Source: Planctomycetia bacterium (lineage in GTDB: Bacteria; Planctomycetota; Planctomycetia; Gemmatales; Gemmataceae). From it: 64,000 bases of DNA. Shown here piece by piece: positions 47,201-64,000 of this stretch. The notes under the pieces were generated by a model that was given only the letters and a program-made list of their open reading frames with translations, did no database searches and had not been told where the DNA came from. Every line of letters begins with the position of its first letter. The stretch's first letter is position 1. The position numbers and the translations under genes are program-made. The stretch is taken from NCBI GenBank assembly GCA_005772955.1, contig SXID01000002.1, forward strand, positions 42,593-106,592, read 5' to 3'.

Positions 47201-48349
47201 ACCAGCATGGTGCGCCCGTACTCGTGGGACGGCCACGGAGGTAGCGGCAAGGTCGAGTTCTTCGACATCGGCAGCGCGCTGGTTGTGAACCAGACAGCCG
47301 ACGTCATCACGGAAGTGCAAGACCTGCTGGAAGCCCTCCGCCGGTTGCAAGACCTGGCGATCGCGGTCGAGGTCCGCATCGTGTCGCTGTCCGAGTCGTT
47401 CTTCGAGCGGATGGGCGTGGACTTCTCGGTGAACATCAAGACGAACACGACGAAGTTCGAGCCGTCGCTGACCAGCGGCACGTTCCGCCCGGCACCGTTC
47501 GTCAACGATATCAACACGAGCGGCACGACGATCGGGCTGACCCCGGCTGGGACGTTCACGCCGGACCTGGACGTGCCGATCCGGGCGACCAGTTTCCAGC
47601 GTGGCATCCCAGGGTTCGGGAACTACCCGAACTCGCCGGGCGACAACGGCGGCATCTCGCTGGGCCTCGCGTTCCTGAACGACATCCAGGTCTACACGTT
47701 CCTGGAAATGGCTCAGGGCGACCAGCGAGCCAACGTGATGCAGGCCCCGAAGTTGACGCTGTTCAACGGCCAGACCGCGACCCTCGCGGTTACCGACCAA
47801 CAGTTCTTCGTGACCAGCGTGCAGGTGCTTGCGGTAAACGGGCAGATCGTGTTCATCCCGCAAAACCAGCCGCTGTCCGGCCCGGACACAAACTTCCAGA
47901 TCAGCATCCAGGCCGTCGTGTCGGCCGACCGCCGGTTCGTGCGGTTGAACATGCCGATTAACCTGTCGGCTCAGTCCGGTGCGGTGGTGCCGCTGTTCCC
48001 GGTGACGACGTTCATCACGCCGGTGTTCGAGGGCGGTAGCCAGGGTCAGCCGATCCCGTTCACACAGTTCCTGCAACAGCCGTCGTTCACCAGTCTGGAC
48101 ATCCAGACGACCGTGGTGTGCCCGGACGGCGGTACGGTGCTGCTGGGTGGCTTGAAGACGCTGCGGGAAAGCCGCAACGAGTTCGGGCCTCCGTTCCTGT
48201 CGAAGATCCCGTACCTGAACCGGTTGTTCAAGAACGTGGGCGTGGGTCGCGATACCCGGCACATCATGATCATGGTGACGCCGCGCATCATCATCACGTC
48301 TGAGGAAGAGATCATCCAGACGGAAGGCCGTCTGCCGACCGGCCCGTGA
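44258..48349 (+). CDS. Very large secretin-family protein with TPR-like N-terminal region
   Basis: STN-like LDKPISVEFRQTPLDQAIKNLQTLTGVPLWLD; secretin core NVMQAPKLTLFNGQTATLAV ... LDIQTTVVCPDGGTVLLGGLKTLRES...PFLSKIPYLNRLFKNVG. Confidence 0.9.
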   Translation: MFQAKKWNWKRVAANLLLVPVLTGGTVAIVHAQFGKEKSGKTTMPTAAPATRSGGGLGGGAATSDPKQLIKDGRKALAEGRFAEARDLAQTAEANNPGGKWGLFDDTPSSLRKDIDSAQAKAQKVQAEQLMKQAKTTATKPAVNDAERAYNLDTAIQMARKADQLHGPYSTWDTGDRPDKLVKDLQAARSKFKNVSPAPANPNGNVVAGTVTPTKPDPTGVAQVGGADPKKQGAMKLVAEGRALADQGNFAAAKAKYTEADKLGAAFNQGEFSPGFALQDLNTRGSAAIDKFIRDAHLFTSQQDYVRANAALTNATGVAATLGLFPKPVVEAKAALYVASNGKFGTASPSGIAATGGPEYLVPVAGNGGTDTVPTLPPGVQTVYGGPKPSAPVTGTVTSRQLLDQAAYEFTRGQFDTASKLALQAHNLGGVQDEARGLLNSIDAEKLKLKQRVAIATLENAKSSFNNKDYQQTFNVLVLVDGNLLTADLKATRDQMLTACKAELDKTGSGLATAGGFQPPDMGLPPADPMSGITGSNPAGVARITPDSPTSQADALKKVQFQKLRSDGLKIQADAQAAFGRGETDLAMQLLIDYSNRVRSSGLDTSSVAMLLRPVDGRLDTFRLMKGQTEATARLNKERRDAKEIIVGRGIAEEERKKEVAILVRRYNELLKKNDYATAERVALQAKQLDSDDPAVSALYEAAKLGRRVKEAEQDKANREKFFQYGMRDAENIGPLVTTDDPIAVALRASQRSGLRGSGDSFHLKSRTPATYEIELRLDKPISVEFRQTPLDQAIKNLQTLTGVPLWLDVTSLQAEHISEVQLMNFDVGTSIAGRNVLACLLEPAGLSYVIENDVVKITTTKKAKGRLYTKVFSVADLVTPVPNFALPDYANFDRMLNRTPLSSGQLMIQGVTPGMTGPTPRDPVGGLGGGTPAGALATSPGIQGASQTGGGSLQTINPLGASANVVGGNSTKHEQLIKLITSMVRPYSWDGHGGSGKVEFFDIGSALVVNQTADVITEVQDLLEALRRLQDLAIAVEVRIVSLSESFFERMGVDFSVNIKTNTTKFEPSLTSGTFRPAPFVNDINTSGTTIGLTPAGTFTPDLDVPIRATSFQRGIPGFGNYPNSPGDNGGISLGLAFLNDIQVYTFLEMAQGDQRANVMQAPKLTLFNGQTATLAVTDQQFFVTSVQVLAVNGQIVFIPQNQPLSGPDTNFQISIQAVVSADRRFVRLNMPINLSAQSGAVVPLFPVTTFITPVFEGGSQGQPIPFTQFLQQPSFTSLDIQTTVVCPDGGTVLLGGLKTLRESRNEFGPPFLSKIPYLNRLFKNVGVGRDTRHIMIMVTPRIIITSEEEIIQTEGRLPTGP

Positions 48350-48734: not shown

Positions 48735-51302
48735 ATGCCCGCACCCGCGTTCCTGTCCAAGCTCCCGAAGCCGGCGCTGTTCGCCCTCTACGGGGCGCTC
48801 GGCGGGCTGATCGGTGCGCTCGTGTTCGGCGAGTTGGTGTGGTATCTGCTCCGCCCTGCGTCTGCGCCTGAGCCGCTCACGGTCCCGCCGCCTTTTCCGC
48901 AACTCGCGGTCACCGCGTCGCCGCAGGTGTCGGTGTACCCCGGTGGCTCGAACACGTTTGGCGTGCAGATCGCGCGCGACCGGTTCACCGGTTCGGTGAC
49001 CGTGACGTTCGACAAACTCGCGCCCGGTCTGAGTGCCACACCCATCGTCATTCCCGAAGGCGAGACGAACGGCACCGCGCGGATCGTTGCCACGGACGAC
49101 GTTCAACCCGGCCCATCGACGCTAAAGGTGACCGCGCGCGCGAACCCCAACCGTGAGGGTCACGCGCTCGCGGTGACGTTTGATAAGCCGGTGGAAGTGC
49201 GCGTGATCGAACTACCACCGGCACCGCCGCGCCTGGCGGTGAGCGTGTCGCCGAAGATTCAGGTGTACCAGCGCGGGAAGAACACGTTCGCGGTGCAGGT
49301 CGCACGCGGCGGCTTCACCGGTGAAGTCGAGATCGCGTTCGACGATCTACCGGACGGCGTGAAGGCACCGTCGATCCCGATCCGGGCTGACCGAAACGAG
49401 ATCACCGTCGAGCTTACGGCCGACGGGACTGCGAAACCGGGTGCGCAACCGGTGAAGGTCAATGCCCAGGCGAAGTTCAACGGCGCGCCGCTCCGTGCGC
49501 AAGCGACGACGACGGTAGACGTGATCAGCCCGCCCCGCGTCCCGGTGGACATCGTGTTCGCGCTGGACATCTCCGGCAGCATGCAGTGGGCGATCAACGG
49601 CACGAGTCGCGGCATTCAAAAGTTCGTGGACGAGCTTGCCAAGAATCAATTCGACGTGCGAGTCGGGCTGGTCGGATTCAAGGACACGACTCTCGGCCAG
49701 CCGCTCAAGATCGTGAAGGTCGATGGCGAGAAGATGACGACCAGTTTCGCCAAGTTTCGCGCCGAGGTCGGCGCGCTGCGCGCCGGCGGCGGTGGTGCCG
49801 AGGGCGAGAGCAGTCTGGACGGCGTCGCCGAGGCCGCGGAGTTCCCGTTCCGCGACCAGGTGACGCGGGTCATCATCCTTATTACAGACGAGGCGCCGAA
49901 ACGCCCCGACGGGCGCATGAAGAGCATCGAGGAGACGGCGAAGTACATCAAGGAGAAGAAGATCGACCAGATGCACATCGTCACGCTGCCGGAGTTGAAG
50001 AAGCCGTTTACGCCGCTGTGGGAGGGCGCGAAGGGACAATACTTCGACCTGAAGGCGCTGAACGAGGGCACGGAGAGCTTCGAGAAACTGCTGCCGGACG
50101 TAAGCAAAGCGATCGCGGATCTCGTCGCGGACCGGCCAGCGGGCAAGCCGGAACTACCCGGCCTTCCACCGCCGCCGAAGTTGCCGGACGCCCGCGCCGC
50201 GGGCACCGCGGTCACGCCCGCACGAGAGCCAGAGAAGCCGACCATCGCGCCGCCCGAAGTGAAGAGTTTGCAATCGAACGAGAAGTCCGCAGCCGGCACC
50301 GAGTGGCGGCAGGTTGCGCGCAGTTCGCTGTGGACGGGCATGATCGCGGCGCTCGTGTGTCTCGCGATCTTGTTCGGTCAGAAGAGCTACGTACAGGGCG
50401 GCTTGCCCCCGCTGAACGGCGTGCTCCTCGGTCTGGGCGGCGGGTTGCTCGTTGGGTTGGTCGGCGGTGCCGCGGGTCAAGGCTTGTTCCTGTTGGCGAA
50501 GACGGACAGCGCGGTTCTCGGCGCACTGTTCCGCGTGATGGGCTGGGCGATTCTCGGCGGCCTCGCGGGCGCGGGGCTGTCGCTGTTCATCCCGAACCTG
50601 GGCGTGCTGCCGGGGTTGCTCGGCGGCGTTGCAGGCGGCACGGCCGGCGCGATCGGCTACATCGCGGTGTCTGCGCTCACGGGCGACACGGTCGGTCGGC
50701 TCGCGGGCGGACTGGCGCTCGGCGCCGCGATCGGGTTAATGGTGGCGTTCGTCGAACGGGCGTTTCGGAAGGCGTGGTTGGAGGTGCGGTTCGGCGAGCG
50801 CGAGATGATTACCATAAACCTCGGCCCGGAACCGGTGAAGGTCGGCGGTGACGCGAAGGCTTGCGCCGTGTGGGCGCGCGGCGCGGCCCCGGTCGCGCTG
50901 CTGTTCTTCGTTCGCGACGGCGAGGTGATGTGTGCGGACACGGCCGACCGGTCGGAAGCAGTCGCCGTGAGCGGGTTCAGCCGCACCGTCGGCGCGGTGC
51001 GGGTCGTGGTGCGCACCGGCAACGGCGACGAACCGGTTCCGCTGCCCACCCCCGAACCCGCGCCGAAGAAGAAACGCGCCGCGACCGACGGCTGGGATCC
51101 GCTGCCGGTGTCCGCGAAGCCGAAGACCGCGAAGCCGGTTCCGCCGAAGCCGCTGGCACTCGACGAAGATCCGTTCCCGATTCCGGTCGTGAAGCCAAAC
51201 ATCGCCGCGCCGAAGGCGGGCGGCGGGTGCCCCAGTTGCGGGCGCAAGATACCCGGCGCGACCGGTACGCGGTACTGTATGCTGTGCGATGCCACGTTCT
51301 GA
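48735..51302 (+). CDS. Membrane vWA protein 1: TM + two Ig-like repeats + vWA + Gly-rich TM bundle + C-terminal zinc ribbon
   Basis: DIVFALDISGSMQWAING (MIDAS), repeated PRLAVSVSPKIQVYQRGKNTFAVQVARGGFTG, GxxxG-rich hydrophobic region, CPSCGRKIPGATGTRYCMLCDATF. Confidence 0.85.
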   Translation: MPAPAFLSKLPKPALFALYGALGGLIGALVFGELVWYLLRPASAPEPLTVPPPFPQLAVTASPQVSVYPGGSNTFGVQIARDRFTGSVTVTFDKLAPGLSATPIVIPEGETNGTARIVATDDVQPGPSTLKVTARANPNREGHALAVTFDKPVEVRVIELPPAPPRLAVSVSPKIQVYQRGKNTFAVQVARGGFTGEVEIAFDDLPDGVKAPSIPIRADRNEITVELTADGTAKPGAQPVKVNAQAKFNGAPLRAQATTTVDVISPPRVPVDIVFALDISGSMQWAINGTSRGIQKFVDELAKNQFDVRVGLVGFKDTTLGQPLKIVKVDGEKMTTSFAKFRAEVGALRAGGGGAEGESSLDGVAEAAEFPFRDQVTRVIILITDEAPKRPDGRMKSIEETAKYIKEKKIDQMHIVTLPELKKPFTPLWEGAKGQYFDLKALNEGTESFEKLLPDVSKAIADLVADRPAGKPELPGLPPPPKLPDARAAGTAVTPAREPEKPTIAPPEVKSLQSNEKSAAGTEWRQVARSSLWTGMIAALVCLAILFGQKSYVQGGLPPLNGVLLGLGGGLLVGLVGGAAGQGLFLLAKTDSAVLGALFRVMGWAILGGLAGAGLSLFIPNLGVLPGLLGGVAGGTAGAIGYIAVSALTGDTVGRLAGGLALGAAIGLMVAFVERAFRKAWLEVRFGEREMITINLGPEPVKVGGDAKACAVWARGAAPVALLFFVRDGEVMCADTADRSEAVAVSGFSRTVGAVRVVVRTGNGDEPVPLPTPEPAPKKKRAATDGWDPLPVSAKPKTAKPVPPKPLALDEDPFPIPVVKPNIAAPKAGGGCPSCGRKIPGATGTRYCMLCDATF

Positions 51303-51312
51303 ATGCGTTCTT

Positions 51313-51399
51313 GTAGGGTGGGTCAAGGCTTTGCGCAGCCCACCATCATCGCGATTGAATGCGCGTAGTGGGCCTGCGCAAAGCCTTGACCCACCCTAC
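51313..51399. repeat. Inverted repeat (gtagggtgggtcaaggctttgcgcag family)
   Basis: gtagggtgggtcaaggctttgcgcagcccac ... gtgggcctgcgcaaagccttgacccaccctac. Confidence 0.92.
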
Positions 51400-51421
51400 G
51401 AAAACACCCGGAGCCGCCGAC

Positions 51422-53758
51422 ATGCCCGCGCCGAAGTTCCTGTCCGGGTTGCCCAAACCAGTGCTGTTCGGCCTGTACGGGGCCGGCGGCGGGTTGCTCG
51501 GCGCGCTGCTCTTCGGTGAACTCATCATGTTGGCGCTCGGGCCGAAGGCCGCGGCCGCGCCGCCCCCGCCCGCAGCGCCGGAACCGCGACTCGCGATCGG
51601 CGTGTCGGACAAACTTCAAATCTACCAGGGCGGCACCAACAAGTTGCTCGTGCAGATCGTGCGCGAAGGCTTTGAAGACGACGTGACCGTTCACGTCGAG
51701 GGACTGCCACTCGGCATCACGCCGACGGTGCCGCAAATCATTATCCCAACGGGCAAGACCGCGGGAGAGGTCGAACTGCGCGCCACGTTCGCGACCCCAG
51801 CGGGCACGGAACACAAGAATCTCAAGGTGATCGCCACCGCGAGATCGGGCAGCAAGACCATCACCGCCGAGCCGGTCGAGTTCACACTCGCGCCGCTTGC
51901 CTCGGCGATGCCGCTCGTCGACATCGTGTTCGTCCTCGACGTGACGTCGAGCATGCAGCAGCAGATTGATGGCGTGAAGAACGGCATTGTCACCTTCGCG
52001 AAAGACCTTCAACTCGCGAAGGTGGACGCTCAGTTCGCGTGCATCGCGTTCCGCGACCTGACCGAAGGCGAGCCGAGTGAGATCCTCATGTTCAAAGGCT
52101 CGCAGTTCACGTCCGACGCGGGCGCGTTCAGCGCCGCGGTGGGCACGCTGCGCGCCAACGGCGGCGGCGACCTCCCCGAGAGCAGCCTGGAAGCCATCAT
52201 CGAAGCAACCAGCTTCGGCTTCCGCAAGGGCGCGACGCGGAACCTCATTCTGATCACCGACGCCGCGCCGAAGATCACGCAGGGACAAGGCGCGAGCATC
52301 AAGGCCGCCGCCGACGCGCTCACGGAGAAGAAGATCGACCTGTTGCACCTCGTCATCAACAACGAACGTGCCGACTGCGGGCGGGCAGAGTACCGCGAGG
52401 TGCAACGCGGCGCGCTCGGCATTACCACCGACAAGGGCGCAGATCGCGGCAAGGAATTCAGTCTCGACCGAACCGCGCGCGACTCCACCGCGTTCACCAC
52501 ACGACTGCTCCCGGAGATGACGAAGGCCATCATCGCGGCGGCCGAGGCGAAGCCCGCGGTGCGCCCAGAGTTGGCGAAGCAAGAGGTGGTGCAACCGAAG
52601 CTGAACACCGTGAAGGCGGTGCAGTCGGACCAAACCTACGACGCGAGTTCGACCGGGCAACTCATACTCGCGGTTGGCGTGTGGACCGGCGCCATCGCGG
52701 CGCTCGTGTGTTTGTTCTTGCTCGGCGGACAGCACCACTATCTGCGAGGTACGCTACCGTCCGCCGGCGGCGTGATCGCGGGTCTCGCGGGCGGAATGGT
52801 CGTGGGGCTAGTCGGCGGTGCGGCCGGTCAGGGACTGTTCCTGCTCGCGCCCGACAACAAGATACTCACGGTGATCTTTCAAGTGCTCGGCTGGACGCTG
52901 CTCGGCGGGCTGGCCGGTATCGGGCTGTCGCTGTTCGTTCCTAACTTGAAGCTCGTGCTCGGTCTCGCGGGCGGCGCGGTCGGCGGCGCGGCCGGCGCGA
53001 TTGGGTTCATCGTGGTGACGGCCGCCGTGGGCGCGGTCCTCGGCCGGCTCGCGGGGGGTTTGGCACTTGGGCTGTGCATCGGGTTGATGGTCGCGATGGT
53101 GGAAGCGGCGTTCCGGCGGGCGTGGCTTGAGGTGCAGTACGGGCCGCGCGAGGTCATTACCGTGAACCTGGGCGCGGAACCGGTGAAGATCGGCGGCGAC
53201 TCGCGTGCGTGTACCGTGTGGGCGCGAGGCGCGGCCGATGTCGCGCTGCGGTACTTCATCCGCGACGGCAAGGTGATCTGCACCGACGTGCCCGCCCGCG
53301 AAGAGTCCGCGGTAAGCGACGGCGACACACGCGCCGCGGGGAACGTGACGGTCGTGGTGCGGACCGGGAGCGGCACCACGCCAGCACTGCCCCCGGCTGC
53401 GCCGCGCCGACCCTCACCGCCGCCAATGCCGAAAGCAAAGCCCGTCGCGAAGCCGCTGGACATCGACGAAGATGCGTTGCCGCTTCCGATGACGCCATCC
53501 GCGCCCGCGCGACCGGTGAAATCCCTGAACATTGACGAAGACGATGCGCTGCCGACGGTGCCACGCCCGGCACCGGTGCCCGTGCCTGCGAAGCCGCAAG
53601 CGGCTTCACCGGTTCCCGCGCCGCCAAAGCCCGCGGCCCCGCCAGCACCCGCGGCGAAGCCTACAACCCGCGACCCAGACGCATGTCCCTCGTGCGGGCG
53701 CAAGACCCCCGGCCGACCCGGCACTCGCTACTGCATGGTTTGCGACCAGACGTACTGA
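51422..53758 (+). CDS. Membrane vWA protein 2, paralogue of the upstream gene
   Basis: MPAPKFLSGLPKPVLFGLYGAGGGLLGALLFGEL parallels MPAPAFLSKLPKPALFALYGALGGLIGALVFGEL. DIVFVLDVTSSMQQQIDG; CPSCGRKTPGRPGTRYCMVCDQTY. Confidence 0.88.
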   Translation: MPAPKFLSGLPKPVLFGLYGAGGGLLGALLFGELIMLALGPKAAAAPPPPAAPEPRLAIGVSDKLQIYQGGTNKLLVQIVREGFEDDVTVHVEGLPLGITPTVPQIIIPTGKTAGEVELRATFATPAGTEHKNLKVIATARSGSKTITAEPVEFTLAPLASAMPLVDIVFVLDVTSSMQQQIDGVKNGIVTFAKDLQLAKVDAQFACIAFRDLTEGEPSEILMFKGSQFTSDAGAFSAAVGTLRANGGGDLPESSLEAIIEATSFGFRKGATRNLILITDAAPKITQGQGASIKAAADALTEKKIDLLHLVINNERADCGRAEYREVQRGALGITTDKGADRGKEFSLDRTARDSTAFTTRLLPEMTKAIIAAAEAKPAVRPELAKQEVVQPKLNTVKAVQSDQTYDASSTGQLILAVGVWTGAIAALVCLFLLGGQHHYLRGTLPSAGGVIAGLAGGMVVGLVGGAAGQGLFLLAPDNKILTVIFQVLGWTLLGGLAGIGLSLFVPNLKLVLGLAGGAVGGAAGAIGFIVVTAAVGAVLGRLAGGLALGLCIGLMVAMVEAAFRRAWLEVQYGPREVITVNLGAEPVKIGGDSRACTVWARGAADVALRYFIRDGKVICTDVPAREESAVSDGDTRAAGNVTVVVRTGSGTTPALPPAAPRRPSPPPMPKAKPVAKPLDIDEDALPLPMTPSAPARPVKSLNIDEDDALPTVPRPAPVPVPAKPQAASPVPAPPKPAAPPAPAAKPTTRDPDACPSCGRKTPGRPGTRYCMVCDQTY

Positions 53759-53852
53759 CGGAACGGGTTCGTCGGGCGCAAAATGTCTTGCGGTCGCCAG
53801 AACTGGCCCTTACGTTAATCGTTGCACCGTTGCCCCTGCCACGTGGACCACT

Positions 53853-56084
53853 ATGGCCGCCCCCAATCCCCGGCCACGCGGTCGCGTTCTCCTGCTCGCC
53901 GCGCTCGTCGCGGTCGCGTTTGGGGGCGCGGCCCGCGCGGAACCAGCGGAACCAGTCACGCCGGAGAGGCTCGCCAAACTGCGGTACGAGTGGCACGAAC
54001 AGCACGCCCGCAAGGAAGCAGCCGACTGGGAAATCAATCTCATCGCGCCACCGCGCCCGATCGGGCGGTCGATCGGTCAGTTCCTGAACCCCACCTCACT
54101 TGTGAACGAACTGCACCCGGTCCTCGCCGGCGATTACGACGCGCTTCGCAACTCCGCGCTGAAACTCGCCGATGTCGCCCGCATCCGCCGCGAAGATGGC
54201 AAGAAGGACTGGGAAGAGGTCTACAAGCAACGGATCGCGTTCCGCAAGTACGCGGACGAACAGCAAGCCGCGTACGGCTTCGACATCGACACCGGCACGC
54301 TGCCAGGTTTCAAACCTACCGTGTTCGACGGGGTCGCAGTCGTGTGGGCGGCGGTCGTGTTCGTGGTGGCGGTCTCACTTGGCAAACGGGCACGCCGCGT
54401 CTCGACCCGCCGTGCGCGCCGGGCCGCGGTCGTTGCGGCGCTGCTGGTACTCACGACGGTTCCGGGGTGTTCAAACGGCCCCGCGCCCGGCTCCGGCGAC
54501 TGGGCCGCACGCGAGGAGGCCGAACTCGTCACCGGGACGAAGGACGCAACCGAGAAAGCAGTCGCCGCGACCGCCGAAGCCAACAAGAAGTGGACGGCCG
54601 CGGTGGACGGATGGGCGAAACTCGTCACGGTGCCGGGCGCGGCCGATGCGTCGGCTGAAATGGTCGTGCGCAATGGCGAAGCTCAGGTCCGCAAGCAGTT
54701 GCAAGCCACCGCCACGGACGCGAGGCTCACGGACCGGCTTGCGAAGGAGGCTGCGAGCGAGAAGACGCAACTCGCCACCGATCGCGCCAAACTCGATGAA
54801 CTCAGGGGCGGCGCCCGGTGGCGGACCATCGCGTTCGCAGTGGCGCGGTGTCTGGGGGCCGCGTTCCTGTTTGGGCTGGCTGTCGCACCGTACCGGCGTG
54901 CGCTTCGCAAAGAGGCCGCGATCGTGAAGGCCGACGCGAAGAAGTGCCCGCGGTGCTTCAGCGAGAAACTCGTCGTCGAGAAGACCGGCACGATCCCGGG
55001 TGCGGAAGAGTCTGCGCGGGACGAGGACGACGAGGACAACGAAGACGCACCGCGCCCGCGCTACCGAGCTGGCAAGCCGAAGCCGCCTGTCCGGCGCAAA
55101 GCCGCGCCCGCGGCCAAGTCCACCGCCGACAGCGGCGAGACTGGGTACGTCGAGTGCAAGACGTGCGGGTTCCGGTTCCTCCGCAGTTACCAGAAAGTGC
55201 GCCGGCTGTGCTTCCCGGTGGTCGGCGTGCGCAACAGCGGCAAGACGCACCTGCTCGCCACCGCTTACGACAAGGTGCGCAAACAGAAGGCGCCCGCGGC
55301 CGCGACCATCGTACCGGCCCCGTCGCTTGGGGACGAACGATTCGACCTGTACATCGACCTGATCCTGAACCTTAAACGCGACGCCGGGAACACGCTCCAC
55401 GACGTGAACACCCCGCCGGACCCGGTGATGATCCACGTTCGCGACACGGACCCATCCGGCGCGAACACCGCGCTGGTGAATCTATTCGACTATTCCGGCG
55501 AACTGGTAAACCAGAAGATCGACGTGGACCGCCTGAAGAAGCAGGCGGTGAAGATGGACGGCTTCATGCTGTTCCTCGACCCGACGCAGCTCGACGGCCG
55601 CTCCGGGGGCGTGACGCTCGACCGGCAACTCGCGGCGCTGAACGAGTTCATGGCCGACATGCGTGAGGCTCGCAAGGTGGATCCCGGCGACGTGATCCCG
55701 GTCCCCGTCGCGATTGTGATTCCCAAGTTCGACCTGCTCGTGACCCGCAACCCGATCGGCGGTCAGTCGGTGCCGTTCATCCGCCGGCTGCTCGAAGAGA
55801 ACCCAGAGCAGCCGAAACGGACCACACTCGACATCGTTCAGGAGCGCAGCGCGATCGTTGAGGATATGTTAGAGTTAATGTTCCGCGGGGTGGATGTGCG
55901 GGCGCTGGTGGAGAGTTACTTCGGCAACCAGGTGATGTTCTTCCCGGTGTCGTCGGTGAACCTGTTCGAGAACGAGTTGGGCGTCGAAGACCTGTCGCAG
56001 CGGACCATCGCGCCGTTCGGGGTCGCGGAGCCGTTTGTGTGGCTGCTGCACATGCATGGATACGAGGTGTTCGCAAATAGGTGA
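53853..56084 (+). CDS. Membrane-anchored zinc-ribbon P-loop GTPase-like protein (double-GTPase/DO-GTPase-like)
   Basis: Signal peptide/TMs, CPRCFSEKL...CKTCGFRF zinc ribbon, Walker A PVVGVRNSGKTHLLATAYDKV, NLFDYSGELVN switch-like, VAIVIPKFDLLVTRNP. Confidence 0.75.
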   Translation: MAAPNPRPRGRVLLLAALVAVAFGGAARAEPAEPVTPERLAKLRYEWHEQHARKEAADWEINLIAPPRPIGRSIGQFLNPTSLVNELHPVLAGDYDALRNSALKLADVARIRREDGKKDWEEVYKQRIAFRKYADEQQAAYGFDIDTGTLPGFKPTVFDGVAVVWAAVVFVVAVSLGKRARRVSTRRARRAAVVAALLVLTTVPGCSNGPAPGSGDWAAREEAELVTGTKDATEKAVAATAEANKKWTAAVDGWAKLVTVPGAADASAEMVVRNGEAQVRKQLQATATDARLTDRLAKEAASEKTQLATDRAKLDELRGGARWRTIAFAVARCLGAAFLFGLAVAPYRRALRKEAAIVKADAKKCPRCFSEKLVVEKTGTIPGAEESARDEDDEDNEDAPRPRYRAGKPKPPVRRKAAPAAKSTADSGETGYVECKTCGFRFLRSYQKVRRLCFPVVGVRNSGKTHLLATAYDKVRKQKAPAAATIVPAPSLGDERFDLYIDLILNLKRDAGNTLHDVNTPPDPVMIHVRDTDPSGANTALVNLFDYSGELVNQKIDVDRLKKQAVKMDGFMLFLDPTQLDGRSGGVTLDRQLAALNEFMADMREARKVDPGDVIPVPVAIVIPKFDLLVTRNPIGGQSVPFIRRLLEENPEQPKRTTLDIVQERSAIVEDMLELMFRGVDVRALVESYFGNQVMFFPVSSVNLFENELGVEDLSQRTIAPFGVAEPFVWLLHMHGYEVFANR

Positions 56085-56099
56085 TGGGGTGATTTGGTT

Positions 56100-56262
56100 T
56101 TCACCCTGAAGGGGTGGGACGACTTAGCCCAGGGCAACGCCCTGGGTCGGTTGCGTATTGGTTTGGCACCCTGAAGTGTCCCAGGTTTTCAGCCTGGAAA
56201 TCAATTGGCCTCGTACCCAGGGCGTTGCCCTGGGCTAAGTTATCCCACCCCTTCAGGGTGAA
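56100..56262. repeat. Long inverted repeat, about 48-bp arms (ttcaccctgaaggggtggga / cagggcaacgccctggg family)
   Basis: ttcaccctgaaggggtgggacgacttagcccagggcaacgccctgggt ... acccagggcgttgccctgggctaagttatcccaccccttcagggtgaa. Confidence 0.92.
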
Positions 56263-56283
56263 GAGGAAACACAAAGAAGAACG

Positions 56284-59214
56284 ATGGCATCCTGGCCGAC
56301 ACAGTCTGATTACAAGGATTCGCTGCAGAACCCGGACGCCGCGTTTCGCGACCCGGACCTGCGGCTGAGCCAGGCTGAGCGCAGCCCGATGGGCGTGCCG
56401 CGCGCCCGGTCCGGCGCGTTCGCCAGCGTGTACAAGATGACCGGACCGAAAGGCGTTGTCGCGCTCAAACTCTTCAACTTTCCCAACGAGGACCGCGCCC
56501 GCCGGTACAAGGCCGTCTCCGATTACCTCGAAAAAGAACTCGGAGCCAAGAAGCCGCCGTGCGTGGTCAAGTTCCAATACCACACCGAAGGGATGCGAGT
56601 CGGGAAGGCGTGGTACCCCACTCTCACAATGGCCTGGGTCAAGGGGGTATCACTTGGCGAGTGGGTCAGGCAGACCGTCGAGAAGAAGGTGCCCGACCTC
56701 GCGGGCATGCGCAAGATGGCCGACAGTTGGGTCGCGCTCATCCAGCAACTCCAGAACACGAAGATCACGCACGGCGACCTCCAACACGACAACGTGATGG
56801 TCGTCGGCGACGCGCCGGTACTCGTGGACTACGACGGCATGTGCGTGCCCGCGCTCGACCCGCCCGACCCGACAAAGAAGCTCGAACAACTCGAATTCGG
56901 GAAGCCCGCGTACCAGCACCCGGCACGGTGCGTCGAGAAACTCAGCGGCACCCTCGACCACTTCTCCGCGTGGGTCGTCTTCGTCGCCCTCCGCGCGATC
57001 GCGGCCGACCCGCGACTGTACGTCGAATACGTCCTCAAGACCGAGAACGAGAACCTGCTGTTCACCGTCGGCGACATGCAGACCCCGGCGAACTCGAAAC
57101 TGTGGCCGGAACTCATCAAGTGCAAAGACCCGGAGGTGGGTAGCTGGGCGCGCGCGTTGCGCACGTGCCTGGACAAGCCCTTCATCAACATCCCGCCGTT
57201 CTCGCTCGACCCGTTCGACCGGTTGCGAACGCTGGCGTCCGCGAGTTCGCGCGACTGGGCTCAGATCGAGGCCGAAACCGTTCTGCTCAAGAAGGCCGGC
57301 AAGGAGGTGCCCGCCGACCTTCGCGACAAGGTGAACCCGGTCGGCGCGCTGAAGGAGTTGTGCGACGCGCGTGTGAAGAACTGGCCGAACATCGCGGCCG
57401 AGGGCGAGCGTCTGCTCGCGACCGGGCGGGCGCTGATGCCCGACGTGAAGCCCATGTTCGAGGAAGCCCGCAAACGCGTGGCCTCACGCGACGCGGTGAA
57501 GAGGGCGTTCGACGAGAAGAATCCCCGCGCCGTGGTCGCCGCGTATCAGCCGGCGCTGATCAACGACTGGGCCGATGCTGGGCTTGTGGCGGGGGCGAAG
57601 GCCGCGGCCGGACAGGTGACGCTGCTCGACAAGTTGAAGGCCGCAGTCGCGGTGCCGGGCGACGGGCGCTCGCTGGTGAGGCTCTGGGACGACGCCGCGC
57701 CGAAGCTCGCGACCGTAGCGGAGGCACACACCTACGAGACGGCCGCGAACGGGTGGCGCAACCGCATCGGCGCCGCGGACGAGTTCCTTCGCGTGTTCGC
57801 CAAGTTCCCACCGACCGAGCGCGAACTCGCCGAAGCGTGGCAAGCGGTACTCGCCGCCGGACCCCTTCACCCCGGCCTCACCGACGCGCACCGCCGACGC
57901 GGTGAGGACGCGCTCCGCTGGCGGCCGCTGCTCGAAAAGCTGCGCCGCGTACCGAATGTTGCGACGCACGAGAACGACACCAAACTGATTGAGGCCTGGG
58001 GCAGTGGCTCCGCGCTCGCCGGGTGCGGCGAGGCGACCGTCTTCACGTCCCGCACGAACGACGCGCGAGCGCGGCTTGCGATGGTGGAGACGCTCGAACG
58101 CGCGATCAAGCAGGCCGACGCGGGCGGCTCCGAAGACGCGGTGGTTGCGACCGCGAGCAAGCTGCCGCCGGACTACCCGCACCCGTACACGACCCGCGTC
58201 GGCGAGGGGTCCGAAGCGATCCGCCTCATGGCCGAGGTTCAGAAGGCGGTCGATCAGCCGAAGCCATCGGACCGCGTCATCGCCACCGCGTTCGATCGAC
58301 TCAAGACGCGGAACCCGAAGCTCGCGGACCGGCTCGACCGCGTGAACCCGGCACTGTTCGCGGAGGTCGAGAGCGCGATTCAGAAGCGCAAGTTGCTCGA
58401 CCGGTTCGCGCGCATCGACGCCGAGGAGCCGCGCCTCGACAAGCAGGACCAAGAGTGGCGGCGGCTGTGGAAGGAGTATGGCAACGCGCTCGCGGACCGC
58501 GCCGACCGCGAAGAACTCCGCGCCCGGTACACGCTGGCCCGCGACCGCGTCGAGAAGTGGGGCAAGGTCGCCGAGTCGCTGAAGGCCCGCGACATGTTCG
58601 CGCTCCGCGACCGGTATTCCAAATACGGTGCGGCCCTCCGCGACTACCCGCCGCTCGTGGACCACATGTCGGAGATTCAAGGATTGCTGGCGAAGGCCGA
58701 TCGCGTGATCGGAATCAGGCAGAAGATCGATACGCGAGTTTCGCTCTCGGCTGACGACCTGACGTTCCTGCGGGACAATCACCCCGCGTTCGATGATACC
58801 ACGAAGACCGCGACCGAGGCGCACGTGCGGGCACGGCTGGCTGGCGACGCGAAGCTGATCCCCGCGTACCCTGCGTACTCCATCACGGGAAAGCGCGGCG
58901 GTCTGGTGAAGGCGTGCTGGTCGTGGGGCGGGCACGGTTTGATCGCGCACTGCGTGGTCGTGGTGGACGGCCGGCGGTTTCTGAACGACCCGTCAGAAGC
59001 GGACCCGTATTCGCGGCTCACCTGTTTGGCGGAGAACCACCAGCGCGAGGGTGGTGGGGTCACGTTGGTCCCGCCGAGTGGCGTTCCACACGCTTACGTG
59101 ACCATCTGGCCGGTGGTGGAACTGGGGTGGAAGACGGTCTACGGTGCGCCGCTGAACATCGGCCCGGTGCCGGTGGGCAGCGGTAGCGCGAGTTCGAGCG
59201 GAAGCCGGTGGTGA
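56284..59214 (+). CDS. Protein kinase-like protein (976 aa) with long C-terminal extension
   Basis: SGAFASVYKM, VVALKLF, ITHGDLQHDNVMVVGDAPVLVDYDGMCVPALD (HGD/DYDG in place of HRD/DFG). Confidence 0.82.
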   Translation: MASWPTQSDYKDSLQNPDAAFRDPDLRLSQAERSPMGVPRARSGAFASVYKMTGPKGVVALKLFNFPNEDRARRYKAVSDYLEKELGAKKPPCVVKFQYHTEGMRVGKAWYPTLTMAWVKGVSLGEWVRQTVEKKVPDLAGMRKMADSWVALIQQLQNTKITHGDLQHDNVMVVGDAPVLVDYDGMCVPALDPPDPTKKLEQLEFGKPAYQHPARCVEKLSGTLDHFSAWVVFVALRAIAADPRLYVEYVLKTENENLLFTVGDMQTPANSKLWPELIKCKDPEVGSWARALRTCLDKPFINIPPFSLDPFDRLRTLASASSRDWAQIEAETVLLKKAGKEVPADLRDKVNPVGALKELCDARVKNWPNIAAEGERLLATGRALMPDVKPMFEEARKRVASRDAVKRAFDEKNPRAVVAAYQPALINDWADAGLVAGAKAAAGQVTLLDKLKAAVAVPGDGRSLVRLWDDAAPKLATVAEAHTYETAANGWRNRIGAADEFLRVFAKFPPTERELAEAWQAVLAAGPLHPGLTDAHRRRGEDALRWRPLLEKLRRVPNVATHENDTKLIEAWGSGSALAGCGEATVFTSRTNDARARLAMVETLERAIKQADAGGSEDAVVATASKLPPDYPHPYTTRVGEGSEAIRLMAEVQKAVDQPKPSDRVIATAFDRLKTRNPKLADRLDRVNPALFAEVESAIQKRKLLDRFARIDAEEPRLDKQDQEWRRLWKEYGNALADRADREELRARYTLARDRVEKWGKVAESLKARDMFALRDRYSKYGAALRDYPPLVDHMSEIQGLLAKADRVIGIRQKIDTRVSLSADDLTFLRDNHPAFDDTTKTATEAHVRARLAGDAKLIPAYPAYSITGKRGGLVKACWSWGGHGLIAHCVVVVDGRRFLNDPSEADPYSRLTCLAENHQREGGGVTLVPPSGVPHAYVTIWPVVELGWKTVYGAPLNIGPVPVGSGSASSSGSRW

Positions 59215-59228
59215 ATCGCGGCGAACTC

Positions 59229-59354
59229 AACCCAGGGTCTCACGACCCTGGCTACGAACAGCCGCCCTTCCAGGGCTCAAGACAAAGAGTTGGTCTTGGT
59301 TCTTAGCCCCGGATGGGGCGGCCGTTCGTAGCCCGTGGGCGTAAGCCCCTGGTT
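59229..59354. repeat. Imperfect inverted repeat (ggctacgaac-gccgcc family)
   Basis: aacccagggtctcacgaccctggctacgaacagccgccc ... gggcggccgttcgtagcccgtgggcgtaagcccctggttt. Confidence 0.8.
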
Positions 59355-59380
59355 TCTTGGTCGAAGAGGAGCGTGAGCCA

Positions 59381-62155
59381 GTGGGACAACCGGAACGGCA
59401 CGCGAACAGTGCGGGTGGTGACCAGTTCTACGTCACCCACTGCACCGTCACGGACAGTGTGCTGAACAATCCGGGCTACACGGCGCGGGCGGCATCGGCA
59501 ACCGAGCCGACGGCGCTCGACGCCGCGTTCCACTACCCACCCTACGAGTTGCCCATCGATCTGTGGCGTGACCTGCCGCCGCCCGCGCTCGCGCCGCGCC
59601 GGCTCGCTCGCACCAAGAACCCGAAGGGTGGCGTGTGGGCGGTTCACTCGGCGTACCTCGCCAAAGATACCGTGGACCGCGACCGCTCGTACTTCTCGCA
59701 CCTGCTCCTGCTGCCGGACGCGGACCCGGCTGCCGTGCTGCGGTCGTGGGGCGCCGGCACCTGGGCGACGAACTACCCGCCCGGCGCATCGAAGGTTCTC
59801 GCGGGCGGTGCCGCGTTGCCCGTCGGCACGCTCGTGAACGACGCGGCGCTCACCGCGTTCCTCGGCACCGACCCCAGTGGCCCGACTCAACTGAGCACGA
59901 CCGTGTGCCCGGAGCGCCTGCGCGCGAACGCGCCCGCCCGGCGCGAACTGTTCGCGCGCATGTTGCGCGCGATGCTGGTTCTGGCGGAAGAAGAGAGCGA
60001 GGCTCGCCGCCGGCTCTACGTCCACGCGGAACCGGGACTGGTCGCGCTCCTCCTGTACGGCTGCGTACGGTTGCTTCCACCGGCCGTCACCGACGACCTC
60101 ACGTTCTCCACCTTCGAGGCGTATCACCGAAACATCCGCGACTACAAACTCGCCGAAGTGGTCGGCACGTATCTGGGCACGCCCGACCGCGGACTCGACC
60201 CGGATCTCGGCACCACGCGCGGCATCGCGCTGGACACGTTCGCTCTGAACCACTCCTCGCAGGAACTTCGCACGGGTGCGGTTCCCGATGGCCTGAACGA
60301 CCTCATCGACCTCGTCGCGACCGGCGAGTGGGGGTTGCTCCCGGTGGTTCGGCGCGCGATCGGTGAAGACCCTGGCGGGCTGCACAAAGCGGGAGCCGCG
60401 CTGGCTCGCGCGCGAGGCCTGGCTCGCGTCGATGCCGGAGCCACGACCATTGACGACCTGCTCTCGCTGCAGGCCGACAAGCTCGCGGCCGAAGAGTTGA
60501 AGTCGCGGCCGGGCAAGGTGTGGCCGGTGGTGAAGACGGCCGCGCTTACGCGCGCCGATGTGCGCACGGCCTTTCGTGAACTGATCGCACTCCCAGACCA
60601 TCTTCGAGAGTTATGGGAAGAGGCGATCGAGGCGCTTCTGAAGGAAGACTACCGCAAGTGGGACGCGCGCTGGTCGGTGATCCGCGCCGCGGGCGGCACC
60701 GAAGAGTCGCGGCGACTGCTCGACAAGATGGTGGGCCGCGAGAAGAACGAGCAGAAATTGTCGAAGCTCCCGACCGACATTCGGAACCGGTTGCGAACCG
60801 CGTGCGCGGATGTGGGGCTATTCCCGTCGCGCCCACTACTCGTGCCCATCGGGTTGGACGAGGTGGAACCGCTGCTCCGCGCGCAACCGGACTGGGCCGG
60901 GTACACCGCGTTCATCCTCATGGCCGAAGACAAGTGGGACTGGCTCAGCCACATCCCGGCCGCCGCGCGAGAGCCGATGCGCAATCGCGGGCGCGCCTTC
61001 CTGTTCGCCTCGCCCCCGGCCGCGATCGCCGCCTACGTCCGCGCGGCCCGCCCGTTCCTCGACACCGATTCCACGTTCCTCGCGACGCTCTTCACTCCAT
61101 ATTCGGCCAGCTCCGCGGCACTGATGGACAAGTTGCTTGTGTCCACCTCGCTGGAGCCGGGCGACTGGATGAAATTGTGCGAGTCGGTCGGGCTGCTCCG
61201 CGACGACTGGGGCAACTTCCTTCTGGAGAAGGACCGGCTCGCGAACCTGCTCGTGGGGTTGGGCGGCGACGGCGTCGGCAAAGATGTGTGGGACGGCTAC
61301 CTCGGGTTGCTCACGCCCGCGCTCGTCTCGCCCGACCTCATCGAGGTAGAACCCGGCGACGACCCGGTGACGATTCACAAGTGGGAACGGAAGGTTCACA
61401 CGCACCTGCGCGCCGCCGCGGCCAAACTCACGGCCGCCGACGCGCGGCTCGTTCAGGCGCTTCCGCCCGGCGGGGTGGCGCGTCTGTTCGCCGCGAATGG
61501 GCTGGTGAAGTGGGTGGATGACCCGACCTCCATTCCGGCCAGCGCACCGGACGAGGTGCCGCACGCGTGCGACACGTTCGAGGTAGATCGGCTCGCCTTT
61601 GTGCGGGCCGCGTACAAGAAGGCCGGGTGTGACCGGCTCGCGCTCCCGGAGCAGGCCGACAAACTCGCCCCCATTGTCGGACTGTTCCGCGCGTGCTTCC
61701 CGGTGGACGGCAACTTCAACACCGCGCGCCGAGCTGCAACAGAAGCAATCCGCCTCTCGGCTCATTGCCCCGACCGCACCCGCGGCGCGCTCCAGGCGCA
61801 CTTCGTTCTCGCGTGCGTGCCGGACATTCACTACGCTGCGATTCTGGAGGACACAAACCGGCAGCACGCGCTCGACCCGTTCGCCGTGGCCCGAATTCAG
61901 GAACGGATCGCGAAGTCCGCGAAGAAGGCTGGCCCGAAGTACGTTCCTCCGGGACCAGCGAGCACGCCCGAAGCCGCACCGGTAGAGCAGCCGTTTGAAG
62001 ACGAGACAGAACCGGACGAGGACGCCGCACCGCTGATCGACAAGCCCCGTAAGAAGGGGCGCAAGGTGTCGTACAAGAAGGGGAAGAAGTCCGGTTGCCT
62101 GGGGGCCGTGCTGTTCGTGGTCGTGGTGTGCGCGCTGGTGGCGCGCGCGATTTGA
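59381..62155 (+). CDS. GAP1-N2-like (GTPase-associated protein 1) protein with C-terminal TM tail
   Basis: N-terminal GGDQFYVTHCTVTDSVLNNPGYTARAAS...YPPYELP...RDRSYFSHLLLLPD resembles GAP1-N2. C-terminal KKSGCLGAVLFVVVVCALVARAI. Start uncertain (59357 TTG or 59381 GTG). Confidence 0.68.
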   Translation: MGQPERHANSAGGDQFYVTHCTVTDSVLNNPGYTARAASATEPTALDAAFHYPPYELPIDLWRDLPPPALAPRRLARTKNPKGGVWAVHSAYLAKDTVDRDRSYFSHLLLLPDADPAAVLRSWGAGTWATNYPPGASKVLAGGAALPVGTLVNDAALTAFLGTDPSGPTQLSTTVCPERLRANAPARRELFARMLRAMLVLAEEESEARRRLYVHAEPGLVALLLYGCVRLLPPAVTDDLTFSTFEAYHRNIRDYKLAEVVGTYLGTPDRGLDPDLGTTRGIALDTFALNHSSQELRTGAVPDGLNDLIDLVATGEWGLLPVVRRAIGEDPGGLHKAGAALARARGLARVDAGATTIDDLLSLQADKLAAEELKSRPGKVWPVVKTAALTRADVRTAFRELIALPDHLRELWEEAIEALLKEDYRKWDARWSVIRAAGGTEESRRLLDKMVGREKNEQKLSKLPTDIRNRLRTACADVGLFPSRPLLVPIGLDEVEPLLRAQPDWAGYTAFILMAEDKWDWLSHIPAAAREPMRNRGRAFLFASPPAAIAAYVRAARPFLDTDSTFLATLFTPYSASSAALMDKLLVSTSLEPGDWMKLCESVGLLRDDWGNFLLEKDRLANLLVGLGGDGVGKDVWDGYLGLLTPALVSPDLIEVEPGDDPVTIHKWERKVHTHLRAAAAKLTAADARLVQALPPGGVARLFAANGLVKWVDDPTSIPASAPDEVPHACDTFEVDRLAFVRAAYKKAGCDRLALPEQADKLAPIVGLFRACFPVDGNFNTARRAATEAIRLSAHCPDRTRGALQAHFVLACVPDIHYAAILEDTNRQHALDPFAVARIQERIAKSAKKAGPKYVPPGPASTPEAAPVEQPFEDETEPDEDAAPLIDKPRKKGRKVSYKKGKKSGCLGAVLFVVVVCALVARAI

Positions 62156-62195
62156 AATGCAAGCGACGAGTTTCACGCAACAAGGCTGGCCGAGT

Positions 62196-63668
62196 ATGAA
62201 CGGGATGAAAGGCGGCGCGCTACTCCTACTACTGGGTATCCCGTTCGCGCTGTATGCGGCGTGGCAGGTGAACGGCGCCACGCACATCGGCACGGGCGCG
62301 CCCGAAGCGCCCGCCGACAAAACCGCCACGAAGGAGCAACTCGACGCGTCGAGCGCGAAGGCGACCGCGTGGTCGGGCGAATCGCGGAAGGCGGTCGCGG
62401 TCACCTGGCAGTACCGCAAGGCCGGCCCGGACGCCTCGTCCGACGCGACCGTTGCCCCCGTGGTGAATGCCGCCGAGGCGCGGTCGGCCGACCTGAACGA
62501 CCTGGACACGTTCCTCTCCTCCGTCAAGCAGCCCGTGTTTACAGGAACCCCGCGATTGAAGCTCCGCTACACCGAGTGGGCGAGCGAGCGGGTCGCGCTG
62601 GACAAAGACGAGCGGGAGATCACCGACTGGTTCTCGCGCCCACCGCAGATCGCCACCGCCGCGGACGCGGACAAGGAGATGGTCGCGTTCATCAAACTTG
62701 TTGACCAGTACGTCGCACGCTCCCAGTTCGCGGACAAGGTCAAGGCGACAAACTGGCGGTGCCGCGCCCGGCTCGCGGTCATCGAGGCGCTGACGGCGCT
62801 GGCGACTTCGCAGTACCGAATCGCCACGAGCGTGAAACTGCCGCTCAAGGCGGGCACCAACGAGGGCACCGCCGCCGTCGCCACGCTGGGCGCGCTGAAG
62901 ATTCAAATCGCGTCCCTCGGCGTGGACGTGACGCAGGCCGACATCGACAAGGTGGCATTCGATGCGTCTTTCCGCATCGCATCCGAGACGAAGAGCGGGA
63001 ACGCCAGCGAGTACACCGCGCGCGAGGAATTGCTCACTCTGTTCGCGCAGCCCAAGCTATTCGACAACGCAAGCGGCGCGACTCAGTGGCTGAAACTGGT
63101 CGCGTCGCAGTACGCGAAGACGACGAAGAACCCGGAGGTGCAGGCGCTGATCCGCGACAAGGTGCAGGAGTTCGCCGACGCATTCGTTCCGGCCGTCGCC
63201 CGTCTCGATGACGACGTGATCCTCCTGGGTCGAGCTACGCCGCGCGACAAAGTTGTGTTCGAGTTCGAGGTGCAAGCGGGCGATGGCGTCATGAAGAAGA
63301 ACCTCTCCGCGAACCCGAACGAGTTCAACGAGTTCGTGCTGAAGAGCAAGCCGCCGGGCGTAAACCACGTCATCAGTTCCGTGGGCAACAAGTACGTGTT
63401 GGATGATCTCAAGCCGACGCCGTTGAGCAACGCGGCGGTGGCGTACAACGCCGCCCGTGCGAAGCTGGCCAACCGCCCAGCCCCATCGCGCTGGACGGCC
63501 GATTCGGTGGCGGAGCTAAAAAAGGCGTGCGAAGGGCAAAAGGAGTTGGTAGACCAGTTGAGAACACTCGATAGCGGACCGAAGGATGAGGCGAAGATCG
63601 CGACTCGCGTGGCCGGGCTGGTCGCTGGCATGGAAGCGAACAAGGAACTGTTCGAGGTCGTGCCGTGA
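62196..63668 (+). CDS. Membrane-anchored hypothetical protein of the GTPase/vWA cluster
   Basis: N-terminal TM GGALLLLLGIPFALYAAWQV, long soluble region; 40-nt gap from upstream gene. Confidence 0.7.
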   Translation: MNGMKGGALLLLLGIPFALYAAWQVNGATHIGTGAPEAPADKTATKEQLDASSAKATAWSGESRKAVAVTWQYRKAGPDASSDATVAPVVNAAEARSADLNDLDTFLSSVKQPVFTGTPRLKLRYTEWASERVALDKDEREITDWFSRPPQIATAADADKEMVAFIKLVDQYVARSQFADKVKATNWRCRARLAVIEALTALATSQYRIATSVKLPLKAGTNEGTAAVATLGALKIQIASLGVDVTQADIDKVAFDASFRIASETKSGNASEYTAREELLTLFAQPKLFDNASGATQWLKLVASQYAKTTKNPEVQALIRDKVQEFADAFVPAVARLDDDVILLGRATPRDKVVFEFEVQAGDGVMKKNLSANPNEFNEFVLKSKPPGVNHVISSVGNKYVLDDLKPTPLSNAAVAYNAARAKLANRPAPSRWTADSVAELKKACEGQKELVDQLRTLDSGPKDEAKIATRVAGLVAGMEANKELFEVVP

Positions 63669-63678
63669 GGCGCGTTCG

Positions 63679-63776
63679 CAGAGTGGTCCGCTCGCTCCGC
63701 GAGCGGCGCGACGCGCGGTTGAGGTTTCGAGACGAACGTATTCGCGAACCGCTCGCGGAGCGAGCGGACCACTCTG
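63679..63776. repeat. Perfect 28-bp inverted repeat
   Basis: cagagtggtccgctcgctccgcgagcgg ... ccgctcgcggagcgagcggaccactctg. Confidence 0.92.
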
Positions 63777-63810
63777 AAATGGCGTTTTCGATTCCTCCAC
63801 AAGGGCGGTC

Positions 63811-64000
63811 ATGAACCTGCTCGTGGCGTGGAAAAAGGTGCTGCTGTTCGGTGCGTTCGGCGCGGTCGGCTGTCTGGCCGGCTGGCTCGTCGGCGAGCCG
63901 TATTTGTACGCGACCACGTTCGTCGGCGACTCCGACGGCGCGGGCCGCGCGCCGTCGCTCATCTCCAAGCCGGTGCCGCCTTCAAGCGAACCGCCACCGC
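63811..64000 (+). CDS. N-terminus of a third paralogue of the membrane vWA family (truncated by window edge)
   Basis: Open frame MNLLVAWKKVLLFGAFGAVGCLAGWLVGEPYLY resembles the KPVLFGLYGAGGGLLGALLFGE N-terminal TM of the two vWA proteins. Absent from the ORF track because it has no stop in the window. Confidence 0.6.
   Translation, partial: MNLLVAWKKVLLFGAFGAVGCLAGWLVGEPYLYATTFVGDSDGAGRAPSLISKPVPPSSEPPP

Follow-up and report, generated by a model that had tools for sequence, protein, structure and literature searches.

In Gemmataceae, a TerY-P phospho-switch and a DO-GTPase/GAP1 switch are combined in one putative membrane signalling operon, whose most likely role, a judgement that we hold at about even strength, is standing envelope or stress signalling. 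Judged by the gene families it encodes, the whole locus is a merger of these two switches, which becomes apparent from its continuation on a second contig with the genes for TerY, a vWA-PP2C phosphatase and a protein that we call U866. In addition, the inheritance of the locus indicates which of its parts behave as units: a TerY-P core, near-invariant in Gemmata, versus a layer of GTPase, GAP1, MEM and U866 that was lost as a block.

The window, that is, the whole stretch of 64,000 nucleotides that was analysed, covers positions 42593-106592 of contig C85 in the source genome (G000), and its last base is the end of that contig (106592 bp). ORF calling and a codon-usage gene map place six complete genes on the + strand (48735-63668), followed by a truncated seventh (63811-64000); the seven consecutive co-directional genes reported in the first-pass annotation are thus all present where it had placed them. 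They encode two paralogous membrane vWA proteins, vWA1 (48735-51302) and vWA2 (51422-53758); a membrane-anchored DO-GTPase2 (GTP, 53853-56084); a protein kinase of the STK_OB type (KIN, 56284-59214); a GAP1-N2/M protein (GAP1, 59381-62155, with an alternative start at 59357); a helical protein with one TM segment (MEM, 62196-63668); and vWA3, a label that we retain despite the lack of a VWA match, of which only the first 63 codons (63811-64000) are visible because the contig ends inside the gene. The starts given for GTP, GAP1 and MEM are corrected ones. Between MEM and vWA3 lies a perfect 24-base inverted repeat, GTGGTCCGCTCGCTCCGCGAGCGG (63683-63706 and 63749-63772), whose occurrence in the window would not be expected by chance. 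Its 21-base core is also found in L046 (G013), in L050 (G003, just past the PP2C match) and in L090, and it is possibly a small interspersed element or a terminator.

Contig C213 of this genome carries TerY (L069:14436-15332), the vWA-PP2C phosphatase (PP2C, L069:12621-14357) and U866 beside a fragment of vWA3, which is cut by the contig end and holds the C-terminal 360 residues of the protein (L069:15503-16585). Since both contig ends fall within vWA3, C85 and C213 are most likely neighbours, joined by inference and not by a continuous read, with about 270 vWA3 codons missing between them. The kinase belongs to a complete TerY-P triad, which the first-pass annotation had missed because of the contig end. 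The order in relatives agrees: GTP-KIN-GAP1-MEM-vWA3 is followed by products of 298, about 600 and about 800 residues and then by vWA1/2, the three products being the TerY vWA protein, a PP2C that begins with a TerY-like vWA domain, and U866, respectively. The vWA1 and vWA2 genes, upstream of GTP in G000, stand at the far end of the cluster in most relatives in which it is contiguous. Some relatives carry further genes, namely a 23S_rRNA_IVP family gene (G008) or two genes of about 300 and 750 residues (G017 and G011) between GTP and KIN (L044, L035, L037), and, at the cluster end in G008 (L045:10487-18735), genes for an LRR protein and a long HEAT-repeat protein that flank two genes of the vWA1/2 type.

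The kinase is identified by the STK_OB model of PADLOC (1.3e-50) through its catalytic part (about 56290-57195; profile positions 2-288 of 562), where the motifs VALKLF, HGDLQHDN and VDYDGM are intact. Its long C-terminal region has no family match, and neither an OB-fold nor a zinc ribbon was detected there by Pfam or by the STK_OB match, which stops at profile position 288. TerY and PP2C match their PADLOC models at 6e-76 and 2e-24, the latter also PF13672 at 24.2 bits (cut-off 24), so that together the three proteins match all three TerY-P triad models; PP2C bears a second, N-terminal TerY-like vWA domain. Given these families and the catalytic motifs, the three are predicted to form a phosphorylation switch. 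TerY and PP2C are adjacent; in G008, G011, G261 and G178 the kinase is separated from TerY by GAP1, MEM and vWA3, and in G000 this stretch spans the contig break. The catalytic Lys, HxD and DYD are retained even in the clade of G007, G009 and G012. The G178 kinase (L205) has LAVRVF aligned where others have [VIL]ALKLF, possibly a Lys-to-Arg change at the catalytic lysine, and still has HGDLQHDN and VDYDCM.

The second switch is formed by GTP and GAP1, whose genes are separated by that of the kinase. GTP matches DO-GTPase2 (PF19993) at 35.5 bits (cut-off 27) and carries TM segments by hydropathy, a zinc ribbon (CPRC...CxxC, about 54945-55166) and the motifs GVRNSGKTH (Walker A), LFDYSGE (Walker B) and PKFD; an alignment of nine sequences shows conservation of G-x-x-x-SGKTH, the core of Walker A, and of LFDY-x-GE and PKFD. 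A DO-GTPase of this type occurs in a single copy per genus genome. In GAP1, a GAP1-N2 domain (about 59465-59788; 19.3 bits by hmmscan and 25.6 bits in a six-frame genome search, cut-off 24) is followed by GAP1-M (about 59924-60127; 25.0 bits, cut-off 24) and by a C-terminal TM segment predicted from hydropathy (62096-62152). Pfam at E up to 1 gave no GAP1-C match in the C-terminal part, a region that is conserved among relatives. The first-pass assignments of a zinc-ribbon GTPase, a kinase and a GAP1-N2-like protein with a C-terminal TM segment therefore stand, with the GTPase and GAP1 matched to DO-GTPase2 and GAP1 and not to unrelated housekeeping families. The same holds for the paired vWA proteins and the single-TM protein. 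A membrane segment in almost every component had also been predicted: vWA1/2, GTP, GAP1 and MEM have one or more, but hydropathy finds none in the kinase.

The paired vWA proteins match PF00092 at 34.9 bits (vWA1) and 37.7 bits (vWA2), with a cut-off of 23.8. In vWA1, an N-terminal TM segment is followed by two beta-sandwich repeats, the vWA domain (about 49548-49967, with the MIDAS motif DISGS), a C-terminal TM bundle, a probably cytoplasmic beta domain and a zinc ribbon. In vWA2 there is one beta-sandwich, the vWA domain lies at about 51920-52357 (MIDAS DVTSS), and a zinc ribbon is again C-terminal. Hydropathy gives both proteins a single N-terminal TM segment and a C-terminal bundle, and in an AlphaFold2 model of the C-terminal part of vWA2 (52658-53368; mean pLDDT 73) five TM helices precede the beta domain. 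Since vWA2 would then have six TM helices in total, its vWA domain should lie outside, and its beta domain and zinc ribbon inside; the cytoplasmic location of the C-terminal domains of both proteins is thus a prediction from a model of moderate confidence. Foldseek found no significant PDB match for this model. By eye, an FHA fold was suggested for the cytoplasmic beta domain of vWA1, vWA2 and vWA3, and we dropped this claim: there was no Pfam or PDB sequence match, and the Foldseek hits were all non-significant, 4g2s (E 0.63) alone overlapping the beta domain sensibly. As for vWA3, its relatives have the N-terminal TM segment, C-terminal TM bundle and zinc ribbon in common with vWA1/2, but in Pfam they have a DUF2135-like domain (above cut-off in G008, weak in G001) in place of a VWA match, and so the further vWA protein announced at 63811 was only partly right.

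Two further conserved proteins, MEM and U866, have no known relatives and are named here. MEM has one N-terminal TM segment followed by about 450 residues, which AlphaFold2 (pLDDT 76) models mostly as helices, predicting a helical array. With no Pfam family and no significant PDB match by Foldseek, its identification as a known toxin or pore was rejected. It is the fastest-evolving of the six components compared, with 59% identity between G000 and G001; TerY is the slowest, with 95%. U866 has no family match, and its N-terminus resembles that of a secreted protein. Comparing the profiles of U866, the GTPase, TerY and the kinase with solved structures returned nothing useful.

The first-pass annotation had proposed examining the neighbourhood across Gemmataceae, and it is indeed conserved. 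Many genomes keep the gene order, at protein identities of 32-84%: it is found throughout the genus (GTDB Gemmata) and in two or more further genera of Gemmataceae, and several genus genomes have the full order GTP-KIN-GAP1-MEM-vWA3-TerY-PP2C-U866. All 19 genus genomes have matches to KIN, PP2C and vWA2, and all except a fragmented assembly have TerY (18/19), which is 79-95% identical to that of G000 in those genus genomes that were compared. For KIN, GTP, GAP1, MEM, TerY and PP2C, the trees and the pairwise distances are congruent (r 0.83-0.98), a correlation that is equally expected from plain vertical inheritance. Three genomes of the genus, G007, G009 and G012, lack the genes for GTP, GAP1 and U866; G012 lacks MEM as well, and G007 and G009 have short, weak matches to it just upstream of vWA3. 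These MEM-like remnants score E 3e-4 in G007 (L072) and 6e-5 in G009 (L073). Since the three genomes form one clade in the kinase tree (support 1.0), the pattern is best read as a single loss of GTP, GAP1, MEM and U866 as a block, one event in one clade, with the TerY-P core and the membrane vWA proteins retained. This joint absence divides the locus into two modules. In G018, an assembly that is 65% complete, GAP1 was not found and GTP, MEM and U866 are present.

Outside the genus, 79 other family genomes were searched, and three of them (G178, G261 and G285) contain a kinase of the KIN type in which the catalytic and the C-terminal part are both present; a contig-cut copy occurs in G286. The order GTP-KIN-GAP1-MEM-vWA3-TerY-PP2C is present in G178, where U866 comes next, and in G261. 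The MEM match is weak in G261 (42 bits); in G178 it reaches 174 bits with local profiles, a copy that the whole-genome MEM search did not report. G285 has GTP-KIN-GAP1 and G286 has GTP-KIN, both cut by contig ends. GAP1-N2 itself is common, occurring in 124 of 250 Planctomycetia genomes, usually with an adjoining DO-GTPase in the neighbourhoods that were fetched. We considered the union of GAP1 and TerY-P as a general planctomycete feature and rejected it: among 37 GAP1 neighbourhoods outside the genus, TerY-P was found only in G178, to which the kinase search added G261 for the combination, and G285 and G286 for kinase and GTPase. Conversely, local profiles found no DO-GTPase/GAP1 in the fetched flanks (at most 10 kb, many contigs being short) of TerY-PP2C-kinase clusters from many phyla (L098-L168), a result that depends on the GTPase profile, since the local GAP1 profile is insensitive to distant GAP1 proteins. 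Within the genus there is also a compact relative (L041, L043, L081 and L082), in which TerY and a small PP2C accompany a kinase fused to WD40-like repeats, sometimes with more than one kinase, and in which L041 and L043 carry a fusion of GAP1-N2/M to TerY.

The main alternative to envelope or stress signalling is an antiphage or conflict system, in which the membrane vWA proteins would detect an attack, TerY-P and GTPase/GAP1 would set the threshold, and MEM or another component would kill or wall off the cell. We consider this possible, though on balance doubtful. The reading gains from the activity of TerY-P triads elsewhere: they protect Pseudomonas aeruginosa PAO1 from phage (PMC10889362), and TerY-P-like modules with an OB-fold kinase are stand-alone antiphage systems according to Gao et al. 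2020, as cited in PMC11090510. Moreover, a role in conflict is predicted for the GAP1-N2 class, which is enriched in multicellular bacteria (PMC7159879), and the rapid evolution of MEM would fit a variable effector. However, a kinase and a phosphatase present in every genus genome, with TerY nearly so and with congruent trees, are not patchy and mobile in the way of defence islands, and the locus lacks island-like turnover; no known effector domain was recognised in it, and the structure search with MEM gave no toxin or pore that stood out from the noise. The first-pass label of a conflict system thus finds no support in the distribution, and the pattern of inheritance weakens the defence reading without refuting it.

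It could also be speculated that the locus specifies an apparatus for building the cell envelope or for secretion, with the vWA proteins, MEM and U866 as structural parts whose assembly the switches control. A secretin gene (44258-48346 or 44258-48349; PF00263, 76 bits) lies directly upstream of vWA1 and vWA2 in the window, adjoins vWA2 in G001 and is three small genes away in G002, and the helical array predicted for MEM would suit such a structure. Nevertheless, the secretin-vWA2 pair and the GTP-KIN-GAP1 core are on separate contigs in G001, and in G002 some 80 kb lie between them, which limits the association to vWA2, and we regard an apparatus as unlikely. A chance neighbourhood of unrelated genes, which the splitting of the cluster over at least two sites in G001, G002 and G016 might suggest, is highly improbable and is refuted by the conserved order, common to at least three genera, together with the joint loss of four genes and the near-universal presence of the remainder.

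Since inheritance is vertical and near-universal, we prefer a role in envelope or stress signalling to a mobile antiphage island. In such a signalling operon, vWA1, vWA2, vWA3, MEM and the secreted U866 would form the extracytoplasmic side, sensing the state of the envelope, ligands or surface attack, and the signal would pass through the six TM helices of the modelled topology to the beta domains and zinc ribbons in the cytoplasm, where a reversible phosphorylation switch would be made up of the kinase, the vWA-PP2C phosphatase and TerY, a metal-binding vWA protein. The state of this switch would set the membrane-anchored GTPase and its partner GAP1. This link between kinase and GTPase is suggested at most by co-location, co-inheritance and co-loss. 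GTPase/GAP1, MEM and U866, the layer that was lost jointly, may therefore be a second, dispensable layer for output or threshold, the direction of signalling being our assumption. Tentatively, and well short of even confidence, we would go further and propose that Gemmataceae possess a lineage-wide machine for envelope signalling and not for defence, whose kinase/phosphatase pair, under a metal-binding vWA protein, gates a membrane GTPase, with MEM and U866 as sensor-side members of undescribed families. The system is passed on in the manner of ordinary cell machinery, in bacteria noted for their unusual membranes, and this makes testable whether such "conflict" systems are really defence.

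How, then, does the locus compare with known systems? Kaur et al. 2020 (eLife 9:e52696, PMC7159879) treat GAP1-N2 systems, which they record in planctomycetes, as NTP-dependent conflict systems, and besides their work, within the collection of papers searched, DO-GTPases appear only as a mention in a PSP paper. The membership of the DO-GTPase2/GAP1-N2 class and the membrane-centred layout that the first-pass annotation had proposed agree with this class: a zinc-ribbon DO-GTPase that has TM segments in its N-terminal part, a GAP1-N2/M protein that has one at its C-terminus, and many TM components. The locus also resembles their third theme, with an active-looking kinase, a PP2C and a standalone vWA protein. 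To call it undescribed accordingly goes too far, although that theme was called restricted to actinobacteria and the present locus is planctomycete. Unlike the published systems, it has no FNIII component (Pfam fn3, all components scanned), for which the beta-sandwich repeats of vWA1/2 might be candidate stand-ins; it has the extra conserved proteins vWA1, vWA2, vWA3, MEM and U866; its PP2C is fused to a second TerY-like vWA domain; and its kinase has a long unmatched C-terminal region, with a single DO-GTPase per genus genome. With the TerY-P triad (Anantharaman et al. 2012; Gao et al. 2020; both as cited in PMC11090510; see also PMC10889362) it shares the TerY vWA protein, the PP2C and the STK_OB catalytic part (1e-50), but the kinase differs in having no detected C-terminal OB-fold or zinc ribbon and in being separated from TerY and PP2C by GAP1, MEM and vWA3, with GTPase/GAP1 joined to the triad. 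Likewise, the stand-alone TerY-PP2C-kinase clusters of other phyla have the three families in common with it, there side by side, whereas the present locus adds the DO-GTPase and GAP1. On the evidence of its gene content, then, the class is already published, and what the present locus adds is the union of TerY-P with DO-GTPase/GAP1 and with a conserved set of membrane proteins; the kinase/PP2C/vWA theme that GAP1-N2 systems show in actinobacteria is thereby extended to planctomycetes.
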